Positions 29,046 through 63,123 of a stretch of 64,000 nucleotides of DNA are shown here, one piece after another. Numbering within the stretch: position 1 is the stretch's first letter; the number at the start of each line of letters is the position of its first letter. A program made the translations under genes and the position numbers. This stretch comes from Mesostigma viride. Its lineage: Eukaryota > Streptophyta > Mesostigmatophyceae > Mesostigmatales > Mesostigmataceae. The notes beneath the pieces are model-generated. The model was given only the letters and a program-made list of their open reading frames with translations, was not told where the DNA came from and did no database searches. The DNA is taken from positions 1 to 64,000 of the forward strand of contig RPFO01001805.1 in the NCBI GenBank assembly GCA_009746045.1. Reading direction: 5' to 3'.

Positions 29046-29690
29046 TGTCAAGGGTATATTTTACCCTATGTGCCCAACTACCTGTTTATATTTAATTCTG
29101 GCCGTCATGTTGTAAACGGAGGACTAATTAGGGTTGCGTCATTATTAATCGCACCCGCCTACCGTATTTCAGGCCGATAATTGAATAGGTTAGGAAGGGC
29201 TCGCCGTGATAATTACGGCACAGTTTATAGCACTAGAAATAGTGCCGTACAGCGAAAGTTATTGTATGCCGAAGTTGTACTATTTCCGGCACAAGACTTA
29301 ACGCACTGTAGGTGCCGACGGTACCATCCTCGGCCCACTATTCCGTGTTGGATATTTCTACCGACACGAGTTACTAGATGCCCCGTACTTAATGCGCTGG
29401 CATGTTAGCAAGACTTCTAGAATGTACGACTCTGAAGTTAAGTCGTTAAGTTATTGTCTTGCGCATAGCCGCCACCTTTGGTGGATATAGGCACGATGTT
29501 TGTGCTCGATGCCTTCACCTTACCTGTCCTAGCTGTCAGCTATGGACGATAATGGTCCCCACCCGGGAACCGCACCATGGCTTTGGCGGTCAAACGGTGG
29601 CAGTCCGTAACCTAAATATGAAATGAATAAATCGTCTATCAATTGTCTCAAGCAGTCTTGACGACCAAGGAATCAACCAAATTTCTAACA
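29046..29690. repeat. Left LTR (645 bp)
   Basis: Direct repeat of 30469-31113, with TGT...ACA ends. It contains short internal hairpins (GCCGTGATAATTACGGC; AGCACTAGAAATAGTGC). Confidence 0.9.
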
Positions 29691-30468: not shown

Positions 30469-31113
30469 TGTCAAGGGTATATTTTACCCTATGTGCCCAA
30501 CTACCTGTTTATATTTAATTCTGGCCGTCATGTTGTAAACGGAGGACTAATTAGGGTTGCGTCATTATTAATCGCACCCGCCTACCGTATTTCAGGCCGA
30601 TAATTAAATAGGTTAGGAAGGGCTCGCCGTGATAATTACGGCACAGTTTATAGCACTAGAAATAGTGCCGTACAGCGAAAGTTATTGTATGCCGAAGTTG
30701 TACTATTTCCGGCACAAGACTTAACGCACTGTAGGTGCCGACGGTACCATCCTCGGCCCACTATTCCGTGTTGGATATTTCTACCGACACGAGTTACTAG
30801 ATGCCCCGTACTTAATGCGCTGGCATGTTAGCAAGACTTCTAGAATGTACGACTCTGAAGTTAAGTCGTTAAGTTATTGTCTTGCGCATAGCCGCCACCT
30901 TTGGTGGATATAGGCACGATGTTTGTGCTCGATGCCTTCACCTTACCTGTCCTAGCTGTCAGCTATGGACGATAATGGTCCCCACCCGGGAACCGCACCA
31001 TGGCTTTGGCGGTCAAACGGTGGCAGTCCGTAACCTAAATATGAAATGAATAAATCGTCTATCAATTGTCTCAAGCAGTCTTGACGACCAAGGAATCAAC
31101 CAAATTTCTAACA
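30469..31113. repeat. Right LTR (645 bp)
   Basis: Matches the left LTR at all but one position. Preceded directly by the polypurine run AAGGGGGG. Confidence 0.9.
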
Positions 31114-42804: not shown

Positions 42805-43620
42805 TGTGTTTTGGTGCTAAGGGGTTGGTTTTGCTGAGAGCTTTTTGGCTATGGCGGTTTGGCTTGCAGAATGCCCTTGGATGCAAAGGGGGAAGTGTTT
42901 TATACCTTCCCCGTGGATGACGCATGGGACTTGTGAAAAATCCTGTGGTCGCCGCTGTGACAGGCTGGTAACGGCAAAACGGCCGTGGAAATCCACGCGG
43001 TGAAGGCCGCGGGCCGCGTGAATCCGCGGGAAATCTGATACGAAACCGCCTTTCCCGCGTCACGCCACGCTGGCCTGGCATGTAACCGCCGTTTCCCGCG
43101 GCACTCCACGCTGGACAAGTTCAGAAAACCGCCGTTTCCCGCGTCACGCCACGCTGGCCTGGCATGTAACCGCCGTTTCCCGCGGCACTCCACGCTGGAC
43201 AAGTTCAGAAAACCGCCGTTTCCCGCGTCACGCCACGCTGGCCTGGCATGTAACCGCCGTTTCCCGCGGCACTCCACGCTGGACCGGCACGTAACGGCCG
43301 TTTCCCGCGGCACGCCACGCTAAAATCGTGAAGTAACCGCCACGCCAACTTGTCAGTCCCGAGCCGCGGCACGAGAAAACGGAGATCCCGAGATCTTCCA
43401 GCGGATTTTTTGGCGCGATTCCTTGTACGGCGTGCTGTCTCACGGGAAATCTCCTGCAAAACGCCTGTTCAGGCCAATCGCACGGTCACGAATCGCCCAA
43501 AAACTTTGAGGCGGAGAAGGGTCTTCGAAGTGTATATGTGCCCAACCACCACGCCTCCACGAGCACTCACCACTACACACCGCCATAGCCAAGAAAGCTC
43601 ACTACATCTCTCAGAACACG
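42805..43620. promoter_or_regulatory. Divergent promoter with ~43/86-bp tandem repeats
   Basis: No gene. Between 43081 and 43310, CCGCCGTTTCCCGCG followed by GCACTCCACGCTGG or TCACGCCACGCTGGC recurs every 43 or so bases, giving an ordered 86-bp higher unit repeated about two and a half times. A decayed hairpin CATGGGACTTGTGAAAAAT...CTGTGG lies near 42921. It may be a regulatory array for both divergent genes. Confidence 0.5.
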
Positions 43621-44846: not shown

Positions 44847-45299
44847 GTGACAGATGCCAGCATAAGATGTGCTTGTTTTCAGCACTAGGCAGTTGGAGAT
44901 AGGATGCCAGCATAGGATGTAGATGTTTGCCAGAATTAGGCCAGTAGATATGCGAATGCCAGCATAACACACTGATATTTTTGAATGACTTGGAAAAGAT
45001 GTGAATGTTCTGGCCCAAACATAAAAAATATCTAAGTGCCATAGTATATTTAAGTATCTGTAGTTAGGAACAGGCCACGTGGCAGCCACAAAGCCCGAGG
45101 GTAGCCAGCCGAATCTGTAGTACGAGATCCGACGGTTACGGAACGGACGGGTACGGACAAGTACGGACGGGTACGGACGGATACGGCCAGTACGGAACGG
45201 ACGCGGCACGCGGAATCCCGTGGACCACCACGAGGCCCCCGTGGGTCCCGGCGGTTTTTAGGTTCCAGGGTTAGTATTACGGGCGCCCGTAATACTAAC
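44847..45299. other. Gene-free interval with small repeats
   Basis: No gene. ATGCCAGCATA recurs three times at about 44860-44970. About 45125-45195 has GTACGGACGG-type short tandem repeats (six or so). A perfect 30-bp palindrome closes it at 45270-45299. Confidence 0.4.
45270..45299. repeat. Perfect 30-bp palindrome at retroelement junction
   Basis: The half site GTTAGTATTACGGGC is followed directly by its exact complement. It abuts the abrupt left end of the Ty3-like element. It could be the remains of a terminal inverted repeat or a structure that broke and joined. Confidence 0.8.
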
Positions 45300-45305
45300 G
45301 GCGGC

Positions 45306-47974
45306 GTGTTGTCGCGAGAGTATCCCGCGCAGTTTCCGCCATCAGCATGGCGTGACCCGTTTGGGGAATGTCCTCAAGATATCCGAGCCATCGGTGAGGT
45401 GCAGGTGCAGCAGTTGTTGCGCAGGCATCATGCCATCGACTTGGTAATCGCGGGTTGGGAGTGCCAGGGCCTGAGCCAGGCAGGGCACGGGCGGGGGCTA
45501 GCCGATCCGCGTAGCGCGCTGTTCTGGGAACTGTTGCGTGTGGTGGGACTGTTGCAGTCGCGTCAGCCCCATCCGCCTGCGTATCTGTTTGAGAACGTTG
45601 TGGCGGGTGACAGCCCACATCAGGCGGTGCGGGAGGACTGGGCTACAATCGTGGCACTCCTGGGGGAGCCCATCGTGTGTGACAACGCAGGGCTGGGTGG
45701 GCTCACGCATCGTTTGCGTGCCTATTGGACCAACGTGGCGTGTGCGACCGGTGTGCAGGCGGTCTTGGGGGCCGTAGCAAGGCAGCATCCGAGTGTGTCT
45801 GCGGAGGTAGCATTGCCTTCCCACCTAGTCACGCAGAAGGTGGATAGCGAGGATCGCCCACCGTATGCACGCGTCAACCGGGTCGGGAGCCCCATGTGTG
45901 CACTGCCGACCCTGGTCAGTTACCAAGGGTCGACAGCATACCGTGATCGGGGTAAGGGTCTCGTTTGGGACACTACCACCGGTCTGTTGGTGCAGCCACC
46001 CGCAGAATTTCGTGAGGCCAGCATGGGTTTTCATGTCGGGGCCTCGGCGCTGCCGGGCGTGCTCGAGAGTGAGCGCTGGTCTTTGATAGGCCAGGCTATG
46101 TCGGTGTTGCAGGTCGGGTATGTGCTGCTTGCATCGGTTGCCGTGCGCCAGTCTGGGGGGGCGTCCCCAGCCAATCCGCCTCAGCAGGTTGAGGCGCGCG
46201 CAGCCAAACTGAAGCGCCCTGCAGCGACGGGGACTTCATCAGCATGGGGGTGGCGTCTGCGACAGGTGTGGACTATCATTCTCATGACCGCCCTGCTGAC
46301 CAGCACCGTGCTGGCCGGCGAGCCCACGCTGCATCGGGTAATACACCGTGCGGCACGCGAGGCTCCGGCGGTGGGTGTCACACCAGGTGTGGCAGCCTTT
46401 TCCTTGTTCCACGACGATGCGGCTAGGGCGCCGCATCTTGAGGCACATGCGGTAGCTGTGGGTGATCCCGCGGATACGCACCCCTGGGCTATTGGCGAAC
46501 ACCTTTCTGATGCGCAGCGCTCAGCCATGCTAAAGTGGCTAGGCACTGCAAGGGGGGCCTTCGCTTTCACAAGTGATGAACTGGGGTGTTTCAATGGTGG
46601 GACCATGCGTGTTCCATTGGACACTGACACTCCTTTGTTCCGACGCCAGCATCGCCTGAGTCAGGCCGAGTTGGATTTTGTAGCCGAGCAATGCAAGGAG
46701 TTAGAGGATGCCGGTATCATCAGGCAATCTTCCTCCAGCTATGCTGCTGCCGTTGTCGTTGCGCCCAAGAAGGACGCTATCACCGGGGCATGGACGGGTA
46801 TGCGCATGGCCACCGATCTGCGGTTGCTGAATGCACACACACCCGTGGACCGTTACCCCATGCCACGTGTGGATGATGTCCTGGATAAGATATCTCCTCA
46901 TGTGAAGTTTGTGTCCTCGCTGGACCTGCGTAGCGGCTTTCATCAGATCGCAGTTGCGCCGGAGGATCAGCGGAAGCTTGCATTCTGGGGGGGCGGCAAT
47001 TTGTATGAGTGGGTGCGCATGCCCTTTGGGCACCGCAACGCTAGTGCTGTTTTCCAACGAGCTATGGACAAAGTGCTTGCAGGTCTTCCTTTCGCCGCTT
47101 GTTACATTGATGATGTAATCGTCTTTAGCGCGACATTTGAGGAGCACCTGGCGCACTTGGAGCAGGTTCGCTTGGCTCTCGAGGAGCATAATATGCGGCT
47201 GCACCCTGAGAAGTGCAAGTTCGCCCAGCGGACCCTCTCATTCCTTGGTCATCAGATTGTGCCGGGTGGCCGGACGCCTGATGCCGCCAAGGTCGAATCC
47301 ATTGCGCAGGCCGCCGTACCCACGGATGTCTCAGGGGTGCGGGCGTATTTGGGTTTGGCTGGCTATTACCGAGGTTACATTGAGAACTTCAGCAGCAAGG
47401 TGAAGCCCTTGACCGAGTTACTCAAGAAGGGGTGCGTGTGGGCGTGGGGTCCCGCACAGCAACGCGCCATCGAGACAATCAAGCAGGAGCTCACGTCGGC
47501 ACCGATTCTGCGCGCCCCTGACTATGCTTTGCCATTTGTGTTATATACCGACTGGTCCAAGGTAGGACTGGGTGCGGTCTTGGCGCAAAAGGATGGTGAT
47601 GGGCGCGAGCACGTTATTGCTTATGCTAGTCGCAGCAACAACCCAGCGGAGAGCCGGTATTCTTCCTATGAGGGGGAGGCACTGGCTGTGGTGTGGGCCA
47701 TCAAGCACTTTCGCCCGTATTTATTGGGCGCGTGTTTACTCTGGTGACAGACCACCAGCCGCTTCAGTGGCTAATGACCAACACCAACCTGACGGGTAAG
47801 CTCGCCCGATGGGCCATGATTATCCAGGAGTACCACATGACCATTGTGCATCGGGCCGGCAAGGACCATGTCAACGCCGATGTGCTATCCCGATACGCCA
47901 TGCCTACCACTGTTGACCACACTGGAGCCCGGGCCATGGGTGCCGAGGGCTCGTCGGTTCTGTGGTCTTTGTGA
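45306..47974 (+). pseudogene. Ty3-like pol part 1: cytosine methyltransferase, reverse transcriptase, RNase H (frameshifted)
   Basis: The frame is open through the left junction, with no ATG start. Residues 50-60 (AGWECQGLSQAG) match the catalytic Cys motif of C5 cytosine methyltransferases (motif IV; here E-C rather than P-C). Residues about 94-98 (FENV) match motif VI, and about 125-140 (LTHRLRAYWTN) motif VIII, in the style of DNMT3-type enzymes. The AdoMet-binding motif I is absent, probably truncated. A hydrophobic segment follows. The reverse transcriptase has YIDD near residue 600, and RNase H follows. The frame slips near 47730 and again near 47930. Confidence 0.75.
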
Positions 47975-49752
47975 ACGCTGCTGGGTATGCGGCCGACGAT
48001 GAGGAGGAGGCGTGGTGGCGCAGTGTCGAGTACTCTGTGGCGGACTTCGGCATCAGCGACGACCCGGTGCGGCCGTCGCCATTCACGCCATCCAAAGCTG
48101 TGTGCGCTATGGAAGAGGGTAGGTCTCTGTCCTTTGACATTGATCCTTCTCTGCAGCAGCTGATCGCTGTGCAGGCTCTCTTAGCGCGTAGCTCTCTTGC
48201 TGATTGCTACACCGCTGATATCTGGCTAGATGGTCGAGTTTTGGAGCAAGTGCAGGGTGCTGTCTTGACTCCTACTCCAGTCGATTGGACTCCTGCTCAG
48301 AAGGCGACGGAGTTGAACAGGGTGCAGCACAGGGCTGCAACCTATGGTTGGGAAGATGGGGTTTTGTACAAGCTGTTGGGCAAGCGTAGGGTGGTCGTCC
48401 CACCGCCTGACAAGCGCGTTGCTATAGTGCAGGCGTACCACGAGCGGTATGGTCACTTGGGTGGCAATCGCACGCTCAGCCTCGTACGGACCAGCTATTG
48501 GTGGAATAACATGCGACACACAGTGGCCCAGGTAGTGGCCAGCTGTGTCCCGTGTGCTCGAACCAAGGCTAACTTTAGCGCAGATCATGGTGCCAAGGAG
48601 CTGATGTCGCTTCCCATCAAGGGCTTGTTTTATCGCTGGCACGTCGATCTGTGCGGGCCGTTTCAGGAGAGCCCTGACGGCAACCTCTATGTCATGGTAT
48701 GCGTGGAGAGCTTTAGCAAATGGGTTGAGTTGATCCCCATTGCTGACAAGCATGCCGCTACCACAGCGAAGCATTTTGCAGACATCATCACCAGGTTTGG
48801 GGCTCCCGCGGAGGTAGTCACGGACCAGGGTGGTGAGTTCAGGGGTGAGTTCCAGGAGTTGCTGGATGGATGTCTTATTGATCACCGTCGCACTTCTCGG
48901 GAGCATCCTCAGGCCAATGGTTTGGCTGAGAGATTGGTGCAGACCGTCAAGCAGGCGCTGCGCAAGTGGAGCCTGCAGGTGCCGGAGTCGGCCAGGTGGG
49001 ATCGCGAGTTGGCATGGATTGCCATGGGTTATCGCATGTCTCCCCAGGAGTCTCTCGCTACCTTCTCCCCGTATTTCCTTCTGTTCGGGCGTAATCCTCT
49101 TTTGCCTACGGAGGCACAGGTTGCGCACCCCGAACCCATGGCCTTCGACAACGCTCAGCAATTTTTGGTTGAGGTGCTGGCCAGGGCAGAGACTTTTAAG
49201 AAGGTCATGCCCATCGCGATGAACAACTTGTTCATTGCTCAGCACAGGGACTCCCTGCGCTACGCTCAGCGCCGGGGGGGCACATACATGGCTCGCCAGC
49301 TGCGGTTTAGGCCAGGGCAGTATGTTTTCCTGCGCACTCAGCTGAAGCACACTTTGGATGTGGAGGCGGGGCCCACCATTTTGCGCATTGTGGCTATCAA
49401 ACCATCGGGAGTGGCAATTTTGGAGGGCGCCGACGGGAGCCGTACGACTGACAACCTCAGCAATCTCAGTCCCTGCTCGCTGCCCAATTTGGTCCACGAC
49501 CTCCAACCGCACACGTCTCGCCGAGTCAAGGACGCCCAGTGTCAGGTTTGTCACCGGGTCGATCAGGCGGAGTCCATGTTATTGTGTGATCAGTGTAACT
49601 GTGGTTGGCACATGCAGTGCTTGCAGCCAGTGGTCACCAGCATTCCGGAGGGGGATTGGTTTTGTCCAGTGTGCACCGCTGCGCAGTTTACCTCCCGCAG
49701 CTTGACTGCGGTCACCGCTGCCCTTGTCTTGGTACGATCGCTGTCTTCGTGA
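47962..49752 (+). pseudogene. Ty3-like pol part 2: integrase with C-terminal PHD finger
   Basis: It is in another frame from part 1 and has no ATG start of its own. The zinc-binding N-terminus (HERYGHLGG, CVPCARTKA) leads to an integrase core with D (WHVDLCGPF), D (VTDQGGEF) and E (HPQANGLAERL) at normal spacing. A GPY/F-like segment (LRFRPGQYVFLR) follows. The last 60 residues are a PHD finger (CQVCHRVDQAESMLLCDQCNCGWHMQC, DWFCPVC). PHD fingers read histone tails, which suggests chromatin-directed integration; this is inference. The integrase core itself shows no break. Confidence 0.8.
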
Positions 49753-49783
49753 TGGGGCCGGTCGCCAGCGAGGGGGGGAATCA

Positions 49784-49921
49784 TGGGACAGGTCCTCGCC
49801 CACCCCACAGGGCATGCAGTTAAGGCAGGCACGTCAGCTAAGCTCATTTGGGTTTTACCAAATTAAGCTGAGTGGCCAGCCGCCATGGTGGCGCCGGAGA
49901 TTGTGGCACGCAGACGCGACA
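49784..49921. repeat. LTR-like terminal repeat (copy 1)
   Basis: TGGGACAGG...CGCGACA, 138 bp, directly after a run of seven G following the integrase. The same sequence occurs at 52950-56087, where a transposon interrupts it. I see no target-site duplication for either copy. Confidence 0.6.
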
Positions 49922-52900
49922 GCTGTCACGGACGCGAGCTATTGGCTCACACCCAACAGTTTTGTCCTCAATTGAGGACAGTGCAATGCTGTTAATAACT
50001 CTTACACTAAAAAAAAATTAAATATGGGGCTTTGAACCATGATCATTTATGATGTGTTTGAGAGTTCCAATGCTTAACATCATCCATATGTGCGCATTTC
50101 CTATTTAATTATGAATTGTTACGTGCAGGGGGGCCTGCATCGGCAACCAAGGAAAACCCTCCACTATAATGCACGAGAGAATGAGACACAAAGACCATGC
50201 TTCCAAGGACCACAAGCGGTCACCAAACCCATAGGACCCCTCCCTAACATGTGGCAGCCACCCCGGGGCTGCCCATGCTTGGCCACCCCACGGACAGCTA
50301 TGGCATATGGCCAGGAACCCGATACGAGCAACTGCACTTGGCAGAGCACTAGGAAAGCTAGCTATGCCAAACTAGGGTAAGGACAGGTTTTCAGTGGCCG
50401 AGTAAGGTCCTAGGTCTTCGTAGGACGCTTAGGTGACACCATGGTGCTTTAGCACCCTAAGTAGAGCCATGCATGCAATATAAAGGGCTCATTATAGGTA
50501 TCGCAAAGACGAAGAGCCTATCACAGCAGCAGAATGCCAACATGACAAGGTCAACTCCTCTACCTAGCTCCCTCTAGAAAAAGGGTTATATGTCAGAAAC
50601 CAAATAGGCAAGATCCCAGAAAGCCTGGGAAAAACTTTCAGCAACAAGGCAGCAACAAGAAACTATCCACACGTACGCTTACCATAGCAAGCAAGGCATT
50701 GCTTCTAACGCCAGCGTTGGCCATGCAGATAACGATTACCTTTGCATTGACGGAACGGAAGGAAAAAACGGTGGCCAGCTAACACTCGCCTCTCCCCATT
50801 CAACAGCGGCATGAAAATGAAGGGGCTGGGCATAATACACCATCGAAATCATACAATGTAATCGAATAACAACCTACGACATGTGTTGTCGTAATTTATA
50901 TGAAGAAACGGATGCGGATGATGTCCGGAGACGGCTTCTCGACGTGCTCCCAGCCGGCCAGATGCGCGGAAAGGCTCGAAAATTATAAAAGAAAGCATGG
51001 GGACGCGCGGGCAGCACCTAGCCTTGCGGCAAATGAAATCTATGGCTCGCGCCCACCGCCGTCGTCGCCAGGCGCAACGACGATCTGACGACATAAAAAC
51101 TGGGTATATTTAACGCTTCCAACCGCCCAAAATACTTGTACCCAGAACTCGCCCTTGAACCCGAAAGCGTAACAATACCCACCCTCACGGTATCCGTTGC
51201 TAATGTCAAGAAAAAAGCGCGCATCACAGAGCAGTATACCGGCTTGTCATGCAATCTACGTCGCCTCCCGTTTTTCTGCAAACTAGACAAATTCCGTTCA
51301 TCAAAGAATTTTTTAGAGAATCAAAAGCGATTGCCCCCCAAAAACAGCTTGGGCGGAAGATCTAGATGTCGATCTATAATTCTGTCTTGGTCCGGGGCAA
51401 AACGATCGCCTGTATAGTTCAGGCAAGCCTCGGACCTGGCTCGACCCCATAGCCGCAATTTGCGGGAACACACGCACGCATTGCAACGTTCCCACCAAAA
51501 TAGGTACTTTTCTCCACCACATAATTTACAGGTACGGACGGGTCCTGTCGACCCCAGTACCGCGCCGCGCCGGGTACCGAGTCCATTTTCGCGGGAAAAG
51601 GGTCAGATGACCGTTGGGACCAAGGTTTCGCGCCAATACCTGCTGCTGAAGGTGCTGTCCTTATTGGGAGGATTTTGTCCTCAATTGAGGACATGTGAGT
51701 TTGGGGCACTATGTCATCCGGGCGGCGCCCACTATGCACAAGACCGGTGACGTGCGCAAGGAATTTGTTTTCTACGCATTTTCGACAAAGGCTAGTGACC
51801 GGGGGGGAACACTAGCACTTGTAGCATAAGAGCGGACGAAAGTGTACGTGCACGCGCGCCGGGCCAGGCACAGCTGGGCGCGCAGCACTGACTTGAGCGG
51901 ACGGCAGCACAAGTGCGCAGCGTCGAGAGGATCATACGCGTGTTAGTGGACAGCTGGAGCTGAAGCTGGACTGCTGGACTTCAACAGCGCCGAGGCTATT
52001 GACAGGCCAGGTGTCTTTGTGGTGTAGAATAGCGGGTCAACGTTATGAGGACTGGACAGAAAATGGAAAAGGACAATTTGCGGTGCGCAGCCAGATCGCT
52101 GGAATGAATGCGAAATTGCTGGCAGCCCTACAAAGGGATTTCTTCTAGAAAGGAACGATTAGACGCAATGTTTGCTGGGCCACTCACACGCAAGGTGTGA
52201 GCGTGCAGATTGTCTGAAGGATATTATGCTTCGACCTTGGTGGACGTGACTCAATGCCGGACATTCCCAGGGACAGAAATGCCGGAGCCTCTAGGAGATG
52301 AGATCGGCAAGAGGGTAGCAATTTAGATTTGTCGGGATGCCTTCCTGCTTTTGTTGGCATGTGTGGTAGAAAGCCAGGACGGCAACTGGAATGCGGTTTC
52401 TATTTGCATGGTTCAGGCAGCAAGATAGTTTTGGCATTCCTGGCTGGACTGACAAGTGTGGCGTGTGTCATGCGTGTGGCATGACGAATGGTTTGGTTCA
52501 TAGTCGAAGAGGACTCTCACGCAGCGTGTAGTCTCTTCGAGTCTCTCGTTAGTGGCCTTCGTGTTTCTCCCTTTCCTTGGGAGCAAGGCCGGTAGCATGT
52601 CATGGAGCGCTGCCTAACTGCGGGCTCGTGAGCATGGAGTGCATCGATATTGAGACTATCAACGTGTTGTAATTGTATTAACTTTCTCAATAAATTCCGC
52701 ATGTGCGGCTTCATCATCAGACTGTGCAAAGTGTGTGTTGTGAAAGCATTGTTCTATAGCAGGGGAGGCAAAAGCACCCTCTTGCACCATCATATTGTCG
52801 CAATTAGAGTAGTTGGAGCGTCTAGCTAACGCCCCAGCAAGGATATTCAAACGCGGCACGCGACGGTACACAAGGGGATCAAGAAGGTGGTCATCAGGCA

Positions 52901-52949
52901 CGAGGGACAGTTCCTTGTCCTCGGCTGAGAGCCCTCTTTTCATTAATCA
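49922..52949. other. Gene-free interval with repeated palindrome
   Basis: No gene I can support. The 18-bp palindrome TGTCCTCAATTGAGGACA occurs at about 49966 and 51680. It resembles the GTCCTC...GAGGAC hairpins of the TTAA element at 10696. AT-rich stretches and TATAAAAG near 50985 may be a promoter, but nothing can be assigned. Confidence 0.4.
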
Positions 52950-55900
52950 TGGGACAGGTCCTCGCCCACCCCACAGGGCATGCAGTTAAGGCAGGCACGT
53001 CAGCTCAGCTCATTTGGGTTTTACCAAATTAAGGGGTCCGGACGGACCTGCCCCCCCCCAAATTGAATACACATGTTTTGCACTCAATACTCATGCTGGC
53101 AATGCAAATTATGATGGGGGACCATAAATATGACCCTTGGGCATGCATCTGGCTACTTTTTGAGTTCAAGGCCCATCACAATACAAGTGCAGGGAGCTTT
53201 TTTTGGCGCGCACACCCCCTAAAAGCACGGATTGCCTAGGACAACCCCCCCACACTTGTGTACCAAACACCATATTCCAGTCAAATCCCCACCCAGACCA
53301 AGGAATGGAGCTAATTTGCAGCACCAAAATCGCACGTCTGGGCATACTTTGGCAGTTTACCGAAAAATACGTCTTTTTTGTGACTAAAAAAAAAAAATCA
53401 AATCAAATACGCATGGGTTGGGCCCAGGGAGATATAGATAACTTCCACAGGGTGGGAATATCAATGGGACCAATTTTCAGCTCATTCTGACTGTAACAGT
53501 ATTTTCTGACAGTGTGTATACTGTTACATCCAAGTGGACGTGAACTTGGAGTTCAACGTTCAGTGTAAATGGCTGAGTCTTTTGTACGGCCAAAGTGTAA
53601 TGATTCCTGGCCTGACTTGACTTTTTGGGACTTATATGCGGAGTGCCCTTTTGATGGTGCTTTGTGTTGGGCCCTGGACGGTATGGGACAGTACCTTGGA
53701 ATCTATGTGTTATCTGACTGATGTCAGTTAGTATCTTTCGTAAGTTAGGGGTGTAAAGCATATATAGAGAGAACCTTACCGGTTCATCTGTGTTCTGATT
53801 GGCTGAGACCTGTAGGATTGCGTTGGACTCCTCTGTGTCGGCGGGGACATAACCTTTGCCTGTTTGTCACCATAGATAGCCATCACGCGGATACCCCCAA
53901 TTATGTGAAGTTATTTCTAATAACCAAACATGCTCACTTCAGGCCCTGTTATTGGACAGCCATATCCGATAGACAGGAAGTCTTGTGTCTGTATGAACAA
54001 GCAGAGAGACGCCCGACCAAAAGGGGACCACCGCTCTCTACCGCGTAAGTACCGTCTCGTAGGAATGGCCTCTAGACGGGAAACGACCACCCTCTATGAT
54101 TCCTGGAGAGTGCTAGGAATCTCCCCTGTCTCTTGGGGTTTGATAAGTCCGTTCTGTCTTTAATGACAGGAGGTAAAAGATCTGTGCATTTAGTGGAGCA
54201 GAGACCACCATTTTATTCTGTTACACTGACCACGTATGTGAACAGGCATCACTTTTGTATGAAAAAAAAAATGCACAAAAATACGGTTTTATGCCAAATG
54301 GCTGCACCAATCACAACCTTGCCCACCACCAAGTGGGGCAAACAAGGTGCCAGCAAGTCATTTATCATGCAAACTATCTTGGAATCAAAATTCAGGTCAT
54401 TCTGAGCTAGACTGATGGCATAAACTAGTGTCCTCAACTGCCACCCCTCAACCCTAGTATAGACTGGCATGAGCTCAAACATAACCCTTTTCATCACCTG
54501 CCCACCACAAATCATCAGCATCCTAACATAGACGGCTGCCAATTGAGTTATACAAACAGCCACCAAATGCAGGATCAAGCTGAGCATGAGCCTTGACTAC
54601 TAGAGAGGTCATTCATAGCATGCAGCACCACACTATGGTAGCATAGTTGGCAATCTTCATTGGTAATAACAGAAATGTTTAGAGGCCCAAGCAACGTTCA
54701 ATAGCAACAGAAACATGTGGGATTAGATGGGTGACTCGTACATGCTAGCCACACCCCACACCTCACCATGGTTGTAAACCATGCTCAACAATAAGGTGTA
54801 TAAACAGCATGCTCATATACACGTGCTATGCTGACTTAGAGTAGAGGATGATGCCTCAATCAACCAGCAATAATAACACAATGTTCTAACCCTGCAGGTT
54901 CACATCACCCCGTTCAAAAACCAACCAACAAAACAGAACTGTAAGCGCAAACACGAAATACAGCAAAGCCATAAGAGAAATGGCTTGCAGCCATCCTCAT
55001 AAGCATGGCTAGCATCCTTGAGAGCACATTGATTGTGATGCATAGTGGCTGTGATCCACAAATCTAAAGAGAACACACACGTAAGCATAGCTTACACATA
55101 TACAAAGCATGGCCAGCAAGAGAAGTATAGCCACCTTGTTTCCCAGCACGTTGAGACGCACGGTTCATATGCTCGCCAGCTTGTTGCATGCCGCCCTCGA
55201 GGCATGCCGGGGTACGTGTTGAATATGCAATATAAGCACTCTGCCATCCAAATCCTTCCATATATCATTACATTAACGTAGCAGCTTACCTTGATATTAC
55301 CCAAATCAATCCTAGACAGGATTTCAGAGCTTGCCACGCATAACGTAAGCGAATCGGTTGAAAGCTGCCGGAAAACTAGAGACGTGCATGCAGCAAGCGG
55401 CGAACAAAACAACGCACCCTTCCAGGAAACCGTGCTGAAAGCTTAGAATAAAGGGATTTCTAAACGCAATAGACTTCGGGGGTAACCACTGGATAATAGA
55501 GGTACAATGGCATGCTATCATTCCTGACAAGGCGCGCAAGAAATGCCAGCCACCCATGGACGGGTTGACAGCGCATAAAGCAGGACCTGGCGTTTTCTTT
55601 CCGAAAATGACGAGGAAAAGTAATAAAATAAAAGGTTCTTTAACATTTTCAATCTCCCCGTTAATGAACGTTGCTTTCTGCATCGCTAGGGACTAAGAAC
55701 CTTTGTAATTATCGCTGTAGGCATGTATTGCTGCTTATTCGTTGCGGCAAGATTTCCGGGCCAGACCCCCTCGCAAACGCGGATGAAAAATGGCATCGAT
55801 CTCGTCAATAATGCATCTTCGGCTACGCAAGATCATGATGAAACTTTAATTTGACGCATCTGCATAATTTTCTGCGGTCTTATTGCCATATTACTGCATT

Positions 55901-56087
55901 TATTACCTAACGCACGTCGCCATGGCCAACTTGGCGCAAGGGTTACGCGCATCGTGCACCACAATTTCACGTGACGGGTACCGGCGCGAATTTTTTGGCG
56001 CGAAATAATTCCGGTCCGTCCGGACCCCTTAAGCTGAGTGGCCAGCCGCCATGGTGGCGCCGGAGATTGTGGCACGCAGACGCGACA
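52950..56087. repeat. LTR-like repeat (copy 2), interrupted by a TTAA element
   Basis: 52950-53032 and 56029-56087 together equal copy 1 (49784-49921) except for one or two base changes, with TTAA at the join. It is therefore a filled-site partner of copy 1. Its neighbourhood shows no other retroelement part in the right orientation. Confidence 0.8.
53033..56028. mobile_element. Non-autonomous TTAA-flanked DNA transposon, 3.0 kb
   Basis: It is flanked by TTAA (53029-53032 and 56029-56032) with perfect 16-bp inverted ends GGGGTCCGGACGGACC, themselves partly palindromic. Its ends differ from the other two TTAA elements, so it belongs to another family. It has no convincing transposase. The longest frame (55324-55683, reverse, 119 codons) is hydrophobic and unassigned. 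The empty version of its target is at 49784-49921. Confidence 0.85.
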
Positions 56088-57748: not shown

Positions 57749-58153
57749 CTAACTTCTAAACGCGAGCATGTCCCGAAGCGGGCAGCACGTCTCCGATAGC
57801 TTGTCTGCGACCCGCCCATTACCTGACAAGAATGTGTCGTCTTCGTTATCCTGACCGCGGAAGGTCAAAGGCATAAAGGGGTTCTGCTGCAGAGGACCGT
57901 CGTCGTCGTATCTACCTGAAGTTCCTCCGATACCATCGTTACGCCGCGGACCTACACCGCCTCCTCTACCACGACCTAATCCACGTCCCAAGGAGCCTCG
58001 TCTAATTCTACCTAAACTAGTGGGGCCGCAAGTTGCTGAGGAGCTACTCTGTGCGAAGGTCGGACGCGACAATTCAGATCTCAATGCATTTACATATGTA
58101 TAACTATAATATGCCATCAGCCAGTTATGCCGTCTAGGGTATTCCGGCCCCAC
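57749..58153 (-). CDS. Low-complexity Gly/Arg-rich open frame
   Basis: The 134-codon frame begins outside any recognisable domain and has Arg/Gly repeats (GLGRGRGGGVGPRRN). Part of it lies within the repeat family at 58145-58345. It may be a fragment of a transposon protein or a chance frame. Low confidence. Confidence 0.2.
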   Translation of the reverse strand: MGPEYPRRHNWLMAYYSYTYVNALRSELSRPTFAQSSSSATCGPTSLGRIRRGSLGRGLGRGRGGGVGPRRNDGIGGTSGRYDDDGPLQQNPFMPLTFRGQDNEDDTFLSGNGRVADKLSETCCPLRDMLAFRS

Positions 58154-58399
58154 CGTCTAGGTCATCTAGTCGCTCTACACGTAAGCCAGCCATAATTTCA
58201 ATGCACAAGGATACACATTTCCATCACCATTCATCTTCATCATCCTGAACGACTCGAACACGCGGACAAGATAACGGCAGGCTCGAGCTACCATGGTCCG
58301 GATTCTCCCGATTTCTGGCCTGCTCTGGTTGTCTCCTTGATAATATGCCATGAGCCAGTTATGCCGTGACCAATTCAATTCAGGATATTATGAAGGAAA

Positions 58400-60240
58400 C
58401 ACCTAACCAGCCATGACCCAAGCTAATACGTGTTACAATCCATAACACACGCCGAGTGCCAACACGAGGGGTAGAACGTGCATAAATGACCACCAACGGT
58501 CAGGCATGCTCGGGCCGACCTGGCCCTCGCACACAGGAACCATGCTGGTCCACTACATCTACACGAAGGATAAGGACCACTAATAAAGTACGCAGCGCGG
58601 CGCAGATGCACCGTTACACTGAACTACAGTACCACACAATTGCCACGTCATAGGCCCAAGTAACCACTGGCCAAAGGTACTAACTACACGTAGGCATAGG
58701 AAAGCTCACGGTCATAACTACAGACCGTACAGACTAGCTGAGGCCACTGAAACGTAAGACCTACATTTACGGCCATAACTACAGCAGGTTGTTACGCGAC
58801 GTAACAGCACCATAGATATAGAGTTGGCTTGATGTTTTAGAGAGATTAGACCGGTAGGATTGCGTGTACCCATCAATCCATCCATCAGGGTTAATGCTCC
58901 GTGACTCCCCAACGGGAGCACGAGATTAACCCATGGTCCGCCAGCACTTTTTTTGGTTTTTTGACCCCTGAAAATGAAAAAAATCATAACTCCTAGACCA
59001 CAACTCCAAATACCCTCAACCCAGGTACTGGGAATATCTACACTTCAAGGGCTTTCAGAGTATGCAATAATACCATTGGTTTGTCAAGGCATTTGGATAC
59101 TAGGTCCAACCAAAGTTGGCCAAACGATCGTTTCCGTGCAAGAAAAAGTACACCCCCCCCATTTTTCTCAGGGGGGGGTCAGAAACCTCAATACCAACAT
59201 TGGACAATTTAGTTGGATAGTCCAATGGTGCTTTCCTTTGGTCAAACCACCCGGATACCCCATTTGACATGTATAATGCACGCGTGTACATGTATGGCTT
59301 ACGCGCGCGCAAACAGCCAACTATGCCATGCTATACAATTATGCAATATAAATGACCACAATAGAGTGCCAAACCTGCTGGAATCCAAACATGACGCCAA
59401 CTTGCCATCACTGAACGTTATCCCCCAAAGAAGTGCCACAAATTGTGCACCATAATGGCTAATACCCCTCCTAGAGCAGGCATGGAAAGCTGTTGCAATA
59501 ACCACTATCCTACTCATCAAAAGACATGTAAGAAGGTACGAGTCTCCCTGCAAACAACGTGCAAACGCATTGCCGCACCTGCCTCGATCATGACCTGGCC
59601 GGGTTCCGCTGGCCGGCATGCTCACACGTCACGTATGCAGCTACTAGTGGGAGAGGCGGCCATAGCCGCTCTATCCATGCATCCGTCATCATTACCATGT
59701 TGAAGATATGTGCAAAAATGACGTCTAACGCGTCCACGTTCCCAGCAAATGGCGCAGCGGGCTTTCGTAAAGACGCGGGAGGCCCAGGCAGACGGAAACT
59801 CCCAAGAACCAAAGGAAACCGGCGATACCAAACGGGACGTCAAGACAGAGGTAATAGCCACTGCGTATTTCCTCAACAGCATACATCTGATCATTCTTGA
59901 TGTACCAAAATAATGCATCATCGTTCAGGGGTCTACATCTGACCCATTTCAAGCCGCGGAACCCAAAATTGCCACAAAATGGCACGCTGACAGCCATATC
60001 TCTATGCGCGCGCGCAACGGTAAAAAATGTTAGCAAAAGTCACGTGACTGCCTGCAAGAAAGTGGTGGTATTTACTGGGCTGTGGCGCAATTACCTACCC
60101 AACCTAAGCATTTTCATTCACGTTGGGTCTGCCCCGACCGGCCGGACATATTTACGTTACGTCACTTACGTCGCAGGTCACGGAATTACGCGGCACAGTT
60201 ACGTTACGTGTGTTGTGGTAAAAAATGACCACATCGGCGG
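58400..60240. other. Gene-free interval
   Basis: No gene seen. It contains C-run and G-run low-complexity stretches (about 59145-59180) and no repeat or motif that I can classify. The chance frames here have no conserved character. Confidence 0.4.
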
Positions 60241-60250
60241 ACCATGTGGG

Positions 60251-60448
60251 TTAATCTGGCTGTAGCGTGCGAGCATTGAAGGTGGCGAGGACTAGGGGTG
60301 CGCGTTGACCAAAGAGCGGGGGGGTGCGAGCGGGGATGGGGGCGGGGGTGGAGCAGGGTGGTGATGGGGGTGGAGACGGTGGTGAGAGGGGGGTGGCGGG
60401 GGCAGGAGGACTTATGCTTTCAATCACCGTTTCGATTCTTCCTGCCAA
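60251..60448 (-). pseudogene. LINE-type ORF2 start remnant
   Basis: A frame of 65 codons ends in PLVLATFNARTLQPD, which matches the beginning of the endonuclease domain of LINE ORF2 proteins (ATFNVRTL-type). It is preceded by Pro-rich low complexity and breaks off at once. A fragment only. Confidence 0.45.
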
Positions 60449-61357
60449 CGCGTCGAGGCGACGCCGACGGTTGGCTCAGGTGGCCAGGTAGAATGAATCT
60501 GCGTCTGCACGCATTAGAAATGCGTGCAGTCTGAGGAGGTTTCAGAGGGGGCCGCGCGAGGCGGGGCGAACCTGGCACACTGCCGACCTGTTGCTCTCTC
60601 TCCGACAGCCTGAGGACTGCGAAGGGAAATTAATTAATGCTCGCGAATGAATGGACGAATTTCAATATATTGAGCTGACACATTTTCATCTCCATTCATA
60701 TTTATCATCCTGAACGACTCGAAAACGCGGACAAGACAACGGCAGGCTCGAGCTACCATGGTCCGGATTCTCCCGATTTCTGGCCTGCGCTGGTTGTCTC
60801 CTTGATATTGAGCTGGTTGTCTCATTGATATAGAGCCCATGCAAGTGTAAAATCATAGATTAAAAAAGAAATAAGTTGTTCATGCATGAAGTTATTTACA
60901 GCACGATATACCCGTCTGAGGGGCATGCTCCTGTTTTATCAAGGAGACAACCAGCTCAGGCCAGAAATCGGGAGAATCCGGACCATGGTAGCTCGAGCCT
61001 GCCGTTATCTTGTCCGCGTTTTCGAGTCGTTCAGGATGATGAATATGAATGGAGATGGAAATGTGTAGCCTTTAGTAGATGAAATGATGGCTGGCTTACG
61101 TGTAGAGCGACTATAGATGACCTAGACGGTGGGGCCAGAAACAGCTTGCTTGATCAGGGCGTGGTCCTGTTTTATCCCCACGGGCCCCCCATGGCCCATT
61201 GCTAGAATGCAGGGTAGAAGTCCGCAGGTGGAGGTTATTGCCCCTGAGGATACCCGCTAAACTACCGCCTCGTCTGCTATTACAGTAGAGGACAGCTCAG
61301 ATGAGGATTATATCCCCCTCTAGTGACTATATGGTTGGGGTAGGATGCACTGAGAGG

Positions 61358-61858
61358 TGCTACACTAGACGTGACGGGCTCACACCCGGGCAGCCTCCTG
61401 GTTTGTCTGTAATATGGAGGCAGATGGTACGCAAGGATAGATGGCAAGTAGTGATGAAGGAGACCACCCGCAAGTCTGTGGGGGCTTCGCATGTGACCGC
61501 GTATGGCATTCATAGCGATTCGGGCCGTGGTGCCCACAACCCTGTAACTAGGACCTAGATGAATTAATTAATTAATAGACACGTGACTCCGTCACGTGAG
61601 CGTAAGTCCTCAGTGGGAGGGGAACATGGGATGGAATGGATGGTGTAAGCTATCTAGGTCCTAGTTACAGGGTTGCGGGCATCACGGCCCGAATCGCTAT
61701 GGATGCCATTATTACGCGGTCACACGCGGAGCCCCTACAGACTTGGGGGTGGTCTCCTTCATCACTACTTGCCATCTATCCTTGCGTACCATCTGCCTTG
61801 ATATTACAGACAAACCAGGAGGCTGCCCGGGGGTGAGCCCGTCACGTCTAGTGTAGCC
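61358..61858. repeat. Long inverted repeat, ~200-bp arms
   Basis: The left arm (about 61358-61558) and right arm (about 61650-61858) are near-exact inverse copies, with a 90-base loop holding CACGTGAC-TCC-GTCACGTG and ATTAATTAATTAA. Transcripts would form long double-stranded RNA. A third copy of one arm lies at 62640-62870. No coding content. Confidence 0.75.
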
Positions 61859-61989
61859 CATGTCCATGCCGAGTCTATCACGAAAAGTCCACGGGTGGCG
61901 GCCCTGCCGCGCGCGGCCGGGGGCACGCCAGGTGAGGACATATCGCCCAGGCTGGGCGGGCTTAGTGCCCGCTAGTCTATCTGATGTGT

Positions 61990-62709
61990 CTACCTGATAT
62001 CTGTGCGGGCCAGGTGCCCGGCTAGGCCCAGGCGCCTGTGCCTAATAATGTGGGAAACATAGGGCAAATCAGCGTACAAATCCTCATTACTCATGTGCAA
62101 ACCAAAGGGGATGTTAAGGGCCTTGCGCAGCATCTTGGTGACGGCGCCGTCGAGTCGTTGCTCCAGCTCCTGCGTCAGTGTCCAGGTCTCGGCGCCGTAG
62201 GTCAGGATCGTCAGAATGACGACCTTGAAGAGGTCACGCTTGACGATCCGGGGTAGGGCGGGGTTGCTCCACCAGCGGCGGTGGTCGTGGAGTTGCGCCC
62301 ACGCCATGCCGATCCGTGTCGTCAGGTTGTCCTCGCAGTCGGGAAGCCAACTGCCGAGCAGCTTGAAGCGGCCTGAAGTAGGGTAGTTGACCTCGGTGTC
62401 GTCTAAGAGGCGGAGTGTGGGTGGGGGCCCTGCCATGCCGAGGGCCAGGGCCTCCGTTTTGGGGCTGATTTCTAGACCAACCGTCCGAGCCTTGAGCGCC
62501 AGGCAGTCCAGCCAAAGTTGGGCAGACTCCGGCTTCTCGATGAGCGTGATGTCGTCGGCATAAATGAGGTCAGCTAGTAAATTCTGCTTGTTAGTCGGGC
62601 CCCCTTCCCCAAGCTCGTTCGTGATCGCTTGGCCAGGGGCACGGCAAGTAGTGATGAAGGAGACCACCCCCAAGTCTGTGGGGGCTCCGCGTGTGACCGC
62701 GTATGACAT
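61990..62709 (-). pseudogene. LINE reverse-transcriptase fragment
   Basis: The open frame holds the RT catalytic motif LIYADDITLIE and a C-terminal segment of the RRLGLAGHLAR type that ends many LINE RTs, about 240 residues in all. There is no endonuclease part and no start. It is flanked by the repeat at 62640, so it is a truncated non-LTR retrotransposon. Confidence 0.8.
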
Positions 62710-62870
62710 TCATAGCGATTCGGGCCGTGGTGCCCACAACCCTGTAACTAGGAACTAGATAGCTTACACCATCCATTCCATTTTTTATCTATTAATTAAT
62801 TAATTAATCCATTCCATTCCATGTTCCCCTCCCACTGAGGACTTAGGCTCACGTGACGCAGTCACGTGTC
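62640..62870. repeat. Third copy of the inverted-repeat arm
   Basis: Matches 61440-61640 in the same orientation (GGCAAGTAGTGATGAAGGAG, then AACCCTGTAACTAGGA) and ends with a CACGTGAC-GCA-GTCACGTG hairpin near 62850-62873, with ATTAATTAATTAA next to it. Confidence 0.75.
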
Positions 62871-63123
62871 TATTAATTATTAATTAACTAATGATGCAGA
62901 CGATATTTGTAACTTTCGCATTAATTATTTTCTAATGAGATTAGCGTAGTACTCCGTGACATGCCCATGCGCATGACACGCAAGTACTTACTTATACCCG
63001 TCATGCATGGACACTGGCCCCACCCAAGGCCAAACACTTCCGAACTTCGCAGTGCTCATGCATGGCAGTCATGGGAAACACTGGATAGCTTGTCACTGGA
63101 AGCGCGAGCAAGTACTTGCCACC

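Follow-up and report, generated by a model that had tools for sequence, protein, structure and literature searches.

Within a window of 64,000 nucleotides from the streptophyte alga Mesostigma viride (assembly GCA_009746045.1, contig RPFO01001805.1, positions 1 to 64,000), the interval 45303-49752 holds a Ty3-like pol in which a C5-cytosine methyltransferase, reverse transcriptase (RT), RNase H, integrase, and a PHD finger follow one another in that order. It belongs to a Ty3-like long terminal repeat (LTR) retrotransposon family with more than 100 near-identical loci, whose Pol carries a DNMT3-like methyltransferase and an integrase ended by a PHD finger. Judged by comparison of the sequences, the fusion is real, high in copy, and common to a deep clade of elements, some of them in other green algae, nearly all of which carry both domains. 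DNA methylation is usually read as a host weapon against transposons; here, a methylation writer and a histone reader have both been retained by a large transposon clade, and their persistence through deep divergence suggests that the pair is of benefit to the element. A preliminary description had proposed such a combination, and all the parts it named were found by Pfam on the frames of the window (DNA_methylase, RVT_1, RT_RNaseH_2 at 3.8e-35, Integrase_H2C2, rve, and PHD; further values are given in Table 1), including the PHD finger said to close the integrase.

Intact copies were read piecewise on three contigs (C1468, C1646, and C473, the last of which stops inside the repeat A2), and one contiguous pol frame, L046, was read whole. 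The intact order is A1 (~1.14 kb), a frame of 615 amino acids (aa), an overlapping 2074-aa pol, a purine tract, B1 (143 bp), A2, and B2. Within the L046 frame, a zinc knuckle, protease, methyltransferase (motif I, LELFAGIGG), RT, RNase H, integrase, and PHD finger are arranged in succession, with Pfam matches to PF00145 (9.9e-11), PF00078 (1.7e-27), PF00665 (1.5e-10), and PF00628 (8.5e-9); the zinc knuckle scores under its Pfam cut-off, and the protease motif LDSGA at pol 311 was seen by inspection, Pfam having given no protease in this pol but one in the relative P0082. The 615-aa frame, at the position of gag, has no Pfam match. The methyltransferase had been described at the outset as fused to the front of RT; the two do share one unbroken frame in the window copy (45105-47747), but in the intact pol that was read the domain sits between protease and RT.

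The terminal repeats of the element are split, in that A occurs at the 5' side only as A1, while B1-A2-B2 lie at the 3' side, so that two identical full LTRs are absent. The outer ends are TG..CA (TGTCACGG..GCGACA). Leaving gaps aside, identity between the A1 and A2 of a single copy is 99.5-99.7% in the three copies compared, of which one is partial. Target duplication was judged in nine copies for which both ends had been read (C592, C1249, and C133 being outside this count): 4-bp duplications flank six of them (C1468, C1429, C1505, C1579, and two on C1391), and none was seen for C488, C998, and C1646, the 5' flank of the last being nearly all N. The Pol order of protease, RT, RNase H, and integrase with a DDE core, together with the TG..CA ends and the short target duplication, agrees with Ty3/Gypsy elements (Metaviridae), and no tyrosine recombinase is among the Pfam matches of pol or the 615-aa frame. 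A DDE-type integrase thus inserts an element with DIRS-like split repeats. In the copy on C1468 (L042), an extra 88 bp of other sequence lies between A2 and B2, absent from the other 3' ends read.

In the M. viride genome, 135 of 489 candidates for the methyltransferase query were scored (the window included), and every row is 99-100% identical; for the integrase query, 72 of 3440 candidates were scored, 24 of which lie in the unbroken 2074-aa frame, so unbroken copies, for which the preliminary description suggested a search, do exist. A first protein search gave a single match, the Mesostigma model jgi/Mesvir1, with 215 of 219 residues identical. As only the best candidates were scored, these counts are lower bounds that favour close copies. 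A second family (L048), 67% identical in pol, has the same methyltransferase and PHD finger. Between the two families, which are 66% identical in the methyltransferase domain, the ratio of nonsynonymous to synonymous differences per site (pN/pS) is 0.32 for the methyltransferase and 0.25 for the PHD finger, next to 0.10 for RNase H, 0.17 for RT, 0.22 for integrase, and 0.43 and 0.48 for two linkers, pS being near saturation. A class of 1356-aa frames was checked as a possible loss of the methyltransferase, and the one member fetched (L047) has the domain, broken in frame. An RT query aimed at more distant Mesostigma Ty3 families, which may or may not carry the methyltransferase, returned no loci with 150 of 7638 candidates scored.

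The element methyltransferase is DNMT3-like by its sequence profile. Against solved structures, an 11-row profile matches DNMT3A (3e-22) and DNMT3B (4e-21) ahead of 4onj (1.4e-16; a named DNA methyltransferase that we take to be a DRM), DRM2 (1.2e-12), HhaI (2.7e-11), and DNMT2 (2.6e-6). The DNMT3A match consists of three collinear stretches in the unpermuted order of motifs I-X (conventional numbering), while the best stretch on a DRM chain covers the I-IV part only; no ADD or PWWP domain is among the Pfam matches of the 2074-aa pol. An initial single-sequence comparison, headed by 4onj, HaeIII, DRM2, and HhaI, was superseded by this profile. Among aligned rows with a letter at the site, the catalytic Cys is present in 98 of 101, the Glu of ENV (motif VI) in 100 of 102, and the two motif VIII arginines in 100 and 99 of 102. 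A bacterial or phage origin was set aside, since a scan of genome contigs gave 134 pattern matches with none confirmed and the solved-structure profile favours DNMT3; distant relatives of the domain do occur on 15 viral contigs, and the eight placed in a tree fall outside the retroelement group. The same genome also harbours a second multi-copy kind of methyltransferase, a compact HhaI-type of ~300-390 aa with the motif GFPCQ (L001-L008, L091-L094, L096-L100), which forms equal-score groups on many contigs and is perhaps an endogenous virus or another mobile element.

The PHD finger has each of its C4HC3 zinc ligands in 96-99 of 99 aligned fingers, and the spacing from the integrase core is 198-229 residues in 98 rows. 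Among solved fingers, those nearest to that of L046 are BAZ2B (2.5e-16), Drosophila lid (KDM5), BAZ2A, CHD4, and ATXR5, and fingers of the BAZ2, KDM5, and CHD4 type read histone H3 unmodified at lysine 4 (K4). Judged by eye against ING fingers, the L046-type finger presumably has no aromatic cage for trimethylated K4. A PHD finger in Culex was considered as a parallel and dismissed, being described in PMC3286476 as a host gene at an insertion instead of an element-encoded domain.

Relatives were drawn by RT, integrase, and PHD only, which gave 1918 scored matches among 7998 candidates, and the best 120 were analysed with profiles built for this work. Neither domain is seen in 14 of the 120, namely 13 multi-element models and P0026 (13 from Cordylochernes scorpioides and one from Haematococcus). 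In the other 106, the methyltransferase is matched in 100, the PHD finger in 97, and both in 91, with partial or decayed matches in P0010, P0018, P0023, P0031, and P0089. Those with an organism name come from Haematococcus lacustris, Pleodorina starrii, Monoraphidium neglectum, two Closterium strains, and one bacterial genome bin (P0075), whose assignment is probably a misbinning; Klebsormidium is not among the organism names listed. Five of the six relatives that have no methyltransferase match (P0011, P0014, P0015, P0016, and P0050) begin their RT within the first 224 residues, which leaves the upstream domain beyond judgement in them. Similarly, of the nine relatives that have no PHD match, three (P0020, P0100, and P0111) end too early to judge and one (P0013) has a PHD-like tail under the threshold, the remaining five being of Closterium type.

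Two layouts are found among these elements: the methyltransferase lies before RT in Mesostigma, Closterium, and others, and between RNase H and integrase in Haematococcus, Pleodorina, Monoraphidium, and most further rows. In a tree of RT, RNase H, and integrase (110 rows), the second layout falls in one clade of 84 rows with an approximate likelihood-ratio support (SH-aLRT) of 100, including one row that has no methyltransferase match; no single branch of this tree sets the two RT outgroup rows apart from the rest. In a tree of the methyltransferase (109 rows), the same layout forms one group of 82 (SH-aLRT 99), and, in the phylogenetic comparison proposed at the start, 98 retroelement rows group at 99 against 11 outgroup rows made up of DNMT3A pieces, eight viral-contig sequences, and two Mesostigma HhaI-type sequences. 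Pairwise distances in the two trees correlate at r = 0.71 over 95 shared rows, the top of 999 permutations being 0.17. Both are quick trees with one support value and one DNMT3 outgroup, drawn up leaving aside algal host DNMT3 and the K. nitens element; the methyltransferase tree excludes 5 of 103 rows (the partial or decayed matches named above), and the other tree excludes the 13 multi-element models (one P0108 unit was restored as an outgroup; P0026 appears twice), P0006, P0091, and P0012 (restored via its second part). The position of the methyltransferase in pol apparently changed once, and the simplest reading of the trees would be one capture, vertical inheritance, and one move within pol.

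The DNA of the host is itself methylated. According to section 14 of PMC6947507, M. viride DNA contains 5-methylcytosine (5mC) that is widely distributed and mostly in CG, CMT/DMT orthologs are present, and the effect of methylation on expression is partially consistent with land plants; a DNMT1/CMT-like frame (L090) was also recognised by eye in the same genome. When ten copies (two of family A and eight of family B) were compared with intact ones, C-to-T changes were found at 23 of 3145 CG positions and at 17 of 10,136 other C/G positions (Fisher p 4.5e-6). This CG bias is a hint that would fit methylated elements, and it does not separate the element's enzyme from those of the host.

As a whole, the explanation favoured here, with about even confidence, combines methylation of the cDNA by the Pol methyltransferase with tethering by the PHD finger to H3 unmodified at K4. 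The methyltransferase, made within Pol, would accompany the reverse transcription complex and, ahead of integration, methylate the freshly made cDNA of its own element, chiefly at CG, while the PHD finger may anchor the integration machinery to nucleosomes with H3 tails unmodified at K4, at a distance from active promoters. Each new insertion would then be methylated from the outset and lie in chromatin where maintenance enzymes of the host could preserve the mark, and such an arrival might hide or tame the copies and spare the host. Both this function and the shaping or targeting of chromatin at insertion sites put forward in the preliminary description are inferred. Counted in favour of this explanation are the conservation of both domains in relatives, the catalytic residues, the DNMT3 profile, pN/pS, the PHD ligands and spacing, the host's CG 5mC, and the C-to-T excess, together with the report in PMC5890265 that a retrotransposon-borne DNMT methylates CG de novo. 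A bolder form, considered unlikely, sees in the pair a complete de novo silencing kit, in which a PHD reader of H3 unmodified at K4 and a DNMT3-type writer in one Pol rebuild the ADD-methyltransferase logic of host DNMT3 in two domains, so that every insertion would land in methylated chromatin and be written into it; assembly of this kit would have happened once, before the spread through streptophyte and chlorophyte algae, and the kit would mostly have been kept since, with one relocation of the writer inside Pol.

Several observations weigh against the favoured explanation. The sixth relative that has no methyltransferase match, P0066, keeps just a decayed remnant. Coupling of the two domains is not strict: in the five Closterium-type rows (P0082, P0083, P0091, P0092, and P0105), the methyltransferase is matched but no finger is seen. 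In M. viride itself, 48 of the 72 scored integrase matches lie in frames that are shorter than the intact one or otherwise differ from it. Motif IV reads ECQ in both Mesostigma families, not the usual PCQ, which makes the predicted activity less than certain, and 3 of 101 rows, including P0033 from Pleodorina starrii, have no catalytic Cys. The C-to-T changes are few and some may be shared among the B copies, hence the CG excess is a hint for which host enzymes could be the cause.

The conserved catalytic residues would also suit a counter-defence, in which the methyltransferase shields cDNA from host recognition or damage (e.g., deamination or cleavage of unmethylated DNA), the PHD finger is an independent tether, and the chromatin outcome is a by-product; the authors of PMC5890265 proposed the same idea for dinoflagellate elements. 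Nevertheless, such shielding alone leaves the pairing of the two domains in 91 of 106 relatives unexplained, and this account is regarded as improbable. It is a good deal more doubtful that methylation is not the selected function and that the domain binds cDNA, RNA, or S-adenosylmethionine and aids Pol assembly. This regulatory role would be in line with the residue before the catalytic Cys (62 of 101 rows have E there and 34 have P), with P0033, which keeps the fold by profile despite having no Cys, and with the two different places of the domain in Pol; the near-invariance of the catalytic Cys, Glu, and Arg across deep divergence speaks against it.

There is only a slim chance that the enzyme acts mainly in trans on the host genome and shapes the host methylome, as might be imagined from the more than 100 near-identical loci that encode it and from the wide distribution of 5mC in M. 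viride (PMC6947507), given the host's own CMT/DMT orthologs and expression effects that are partially consistent with land plants (both from PMC6947507), as well as the L090 frame. Under the last account, an unrelated methyltransferase would have been joined to RT by an assembly artefact or by a chance junction at the palindrome, the latter being the outcome that the preliminary description named as its own refutation. It is true that the window copy is broken next to a perfect 30-bp palindrome, where none of the other 29 of 30 fetched family loci starts, but the break falls in the methyltransferase, which it truncates, and not at the join with RT. Moreover, the domains follow one another identically in the intact 2074-aa frame, frames equally long are found on many contigs, and both the second family and 100 of 106 relatives carry the methyltransferase; full-length relatives without the domain were not encountered among the sequences examined. 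Chance joining is accordingly rejected for the fusion, with next to no probability left to it, and holds true only of the 5' end of the window copy.

Known systems share single features with this element. Chromoviruses are Ty3 elements with an integrase chromodomain, and are alike in having a histone-reading domain at the integrase C-terminus, which is a chromodomain there and a PHD finger here; one relative, P0103, has methyltransferase, PHD finger, and chromodomain within one Pol. DIRS/PAT elements, which use a tyrosine recombinase and make no target duplication, are alike in the split direct repeats A1..B1-A2-B2, whereas a DDE integrase and 4-bp duplications are found here instead. Ginger1 is not known to have RT or a methyltransferase. 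Its integrase is of Gypsy type, and Ginger1-9_HM carries a C-terminal PHD finger and Ulp1, but it is a cut-and-paste DNA transposon (PMC2836005). The precedents that had been named from dinoflagellates and Klebsormidium are indeed described in PMC5890265. For instance, KnitGypsy-Dnmt3 of Klebsormidium nitens, likewise a streptophyte alga, shares a Dnmt3-related methyltransferase inside a Gypsy Pol open reading frame and DIRS-like repeats; it was compared by description only, and neither PHD nor Mesostigma occurs in the main text of PMC5890265. In that paper the K. nitens lineage is said to have made the acquisition independently, whereas the domain studied here is spread across a deep clade. 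SymbioDIRS-Dnmt3 and SymbioLINE-Dnmt of dinoflagellates share a retrotransposon-borne DNMT, the former methylating CG de novo, but they are of the DIRS and LINE classes and not Ty3/Gypsy with a DDE integrase (PMC5890265), and the authors of that paper see no relationship between the dinoflagellate and Klebsormidium elements; the later PMC12344493 classes the elements reported in 2018 as LTR Copia and DIRS. A literature search over titles and abstract beginnings, with subscription papers and Repbase outside its scope, found no retrotransposon with both a DNA methyltransferase and a PHD finger, and none in Mesostigma. A DNMT3 in a Ty3 element is already known from Klebsormidium; the clade and its PHD finger were not found in the papers searched. 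With many near-identical copies in unbroken frames and a published M. viride bisulfite methylome, Mesostigma allows a direct test of the old question why methyltransferases are carried by retrotransposons.

The window copy is defective, being 5' truncated, twice broken in frame, and twice interrupted by insertions (Table 1). Homology to the intact copy begins at 45303, and as a result the methyltransferase has lost roughly its first 46 residues (motifs I-II, where cofactor binding starts); the flank 45000-45302 matches none of the compared loci apart from the window's own. Two long coding frames, 45105-47747 and 47917-49752, are joined by a short bridging frame, the reading frame being interrupted twice in the RNase H-integrase interval. 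The bounds first given to the element, 45306..49752, hold for its coding part; the 3' repeats continue to 56087 and contain two later insertions of 1.76 kb and 3.0 kb. Within A2 of this copy, ~100 bp at 52772-52872 are absent from the intact copies read.

Table 1. Features of the Ty3-like element copy in the window and of its immediate 5' border
Feature	Position	Strand	Basis
Perfect palindrome, outside the family, adjoining the 5' break	45270..45299	.	30-bp inverted self-match
DNMT3-like C5-cytosine methyltransferase, motifs III-X (PQDIR, GWECQG, FENV, HRLR, FREASMGF, GQAMS), I-II lost	45303..46169	+	PF00145 3.6e-8; 99.7% DNA identity to intact copy; motif conservation in 103 aligned rows
Reverse transcriptase	46764..47258	+	PF00078 1.3e-27
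RNase H, frame break near end, continuing in another frame	47445..47833	+	PF17919/PF17917
Integrase, H2C2 zinc-binding and DDE core	48400..48909	+	PF17921 5.6e-17, PF00665 1.4e-11
PHD finger, integrase C-terminus	49540..49674	+	PF00628 2.5e-9
Purine tract adjoining 3' repeats	49770..49779	+	sequence
B1, the 143-bp split repeat in its first copy, with ..GCGACA at its end	49779..49921	+	98.6% to repeat of intact copies
Start of repeat A2 (TGTCACGGACGCG..)	49924..49942	+	alignment to intact copies
Later 1.76-kb insertion within A2, foreign to the element	49943..51705	.	A2 resumes at ~51706 in intact-copy alignments
Remainder of A2 (~1.1 kb)	51706..52944	+	98% to A1/A2 of intact copies
B2, first part	52945..53033	+	repeat family D5, 99%
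Later 3.0-kb insertion within B2, TTAA-flanked, with GGGGTCCGGACGGACC inverted ends, foreign to the element	53034..56028	.	repeat families D5/D6, sequence
B2, second part, the 3' end of the element (..GCGACA)	56029..56087	+	repeat family D6, 100%

The TTAA-flanked insertion resembles a piggyBac-type DNA transposon, and a palindromic stretch, GTCCTCAATTGAGGAC, lies near both ends of the 1.76-kb insertion. Elsewhere in the window, an 84-bp tandem repeat occupies 43051-43343, upstream of the element, and a 645-bp direct repeat (29046-29690 and 30469-31113; 99.8% identical, ~0.8 kb apart) has the look of a small LTR element of recent origin. At 58142-62885 there is a cluster of large repeats, both inverted and direct, of ~80-96% identity.

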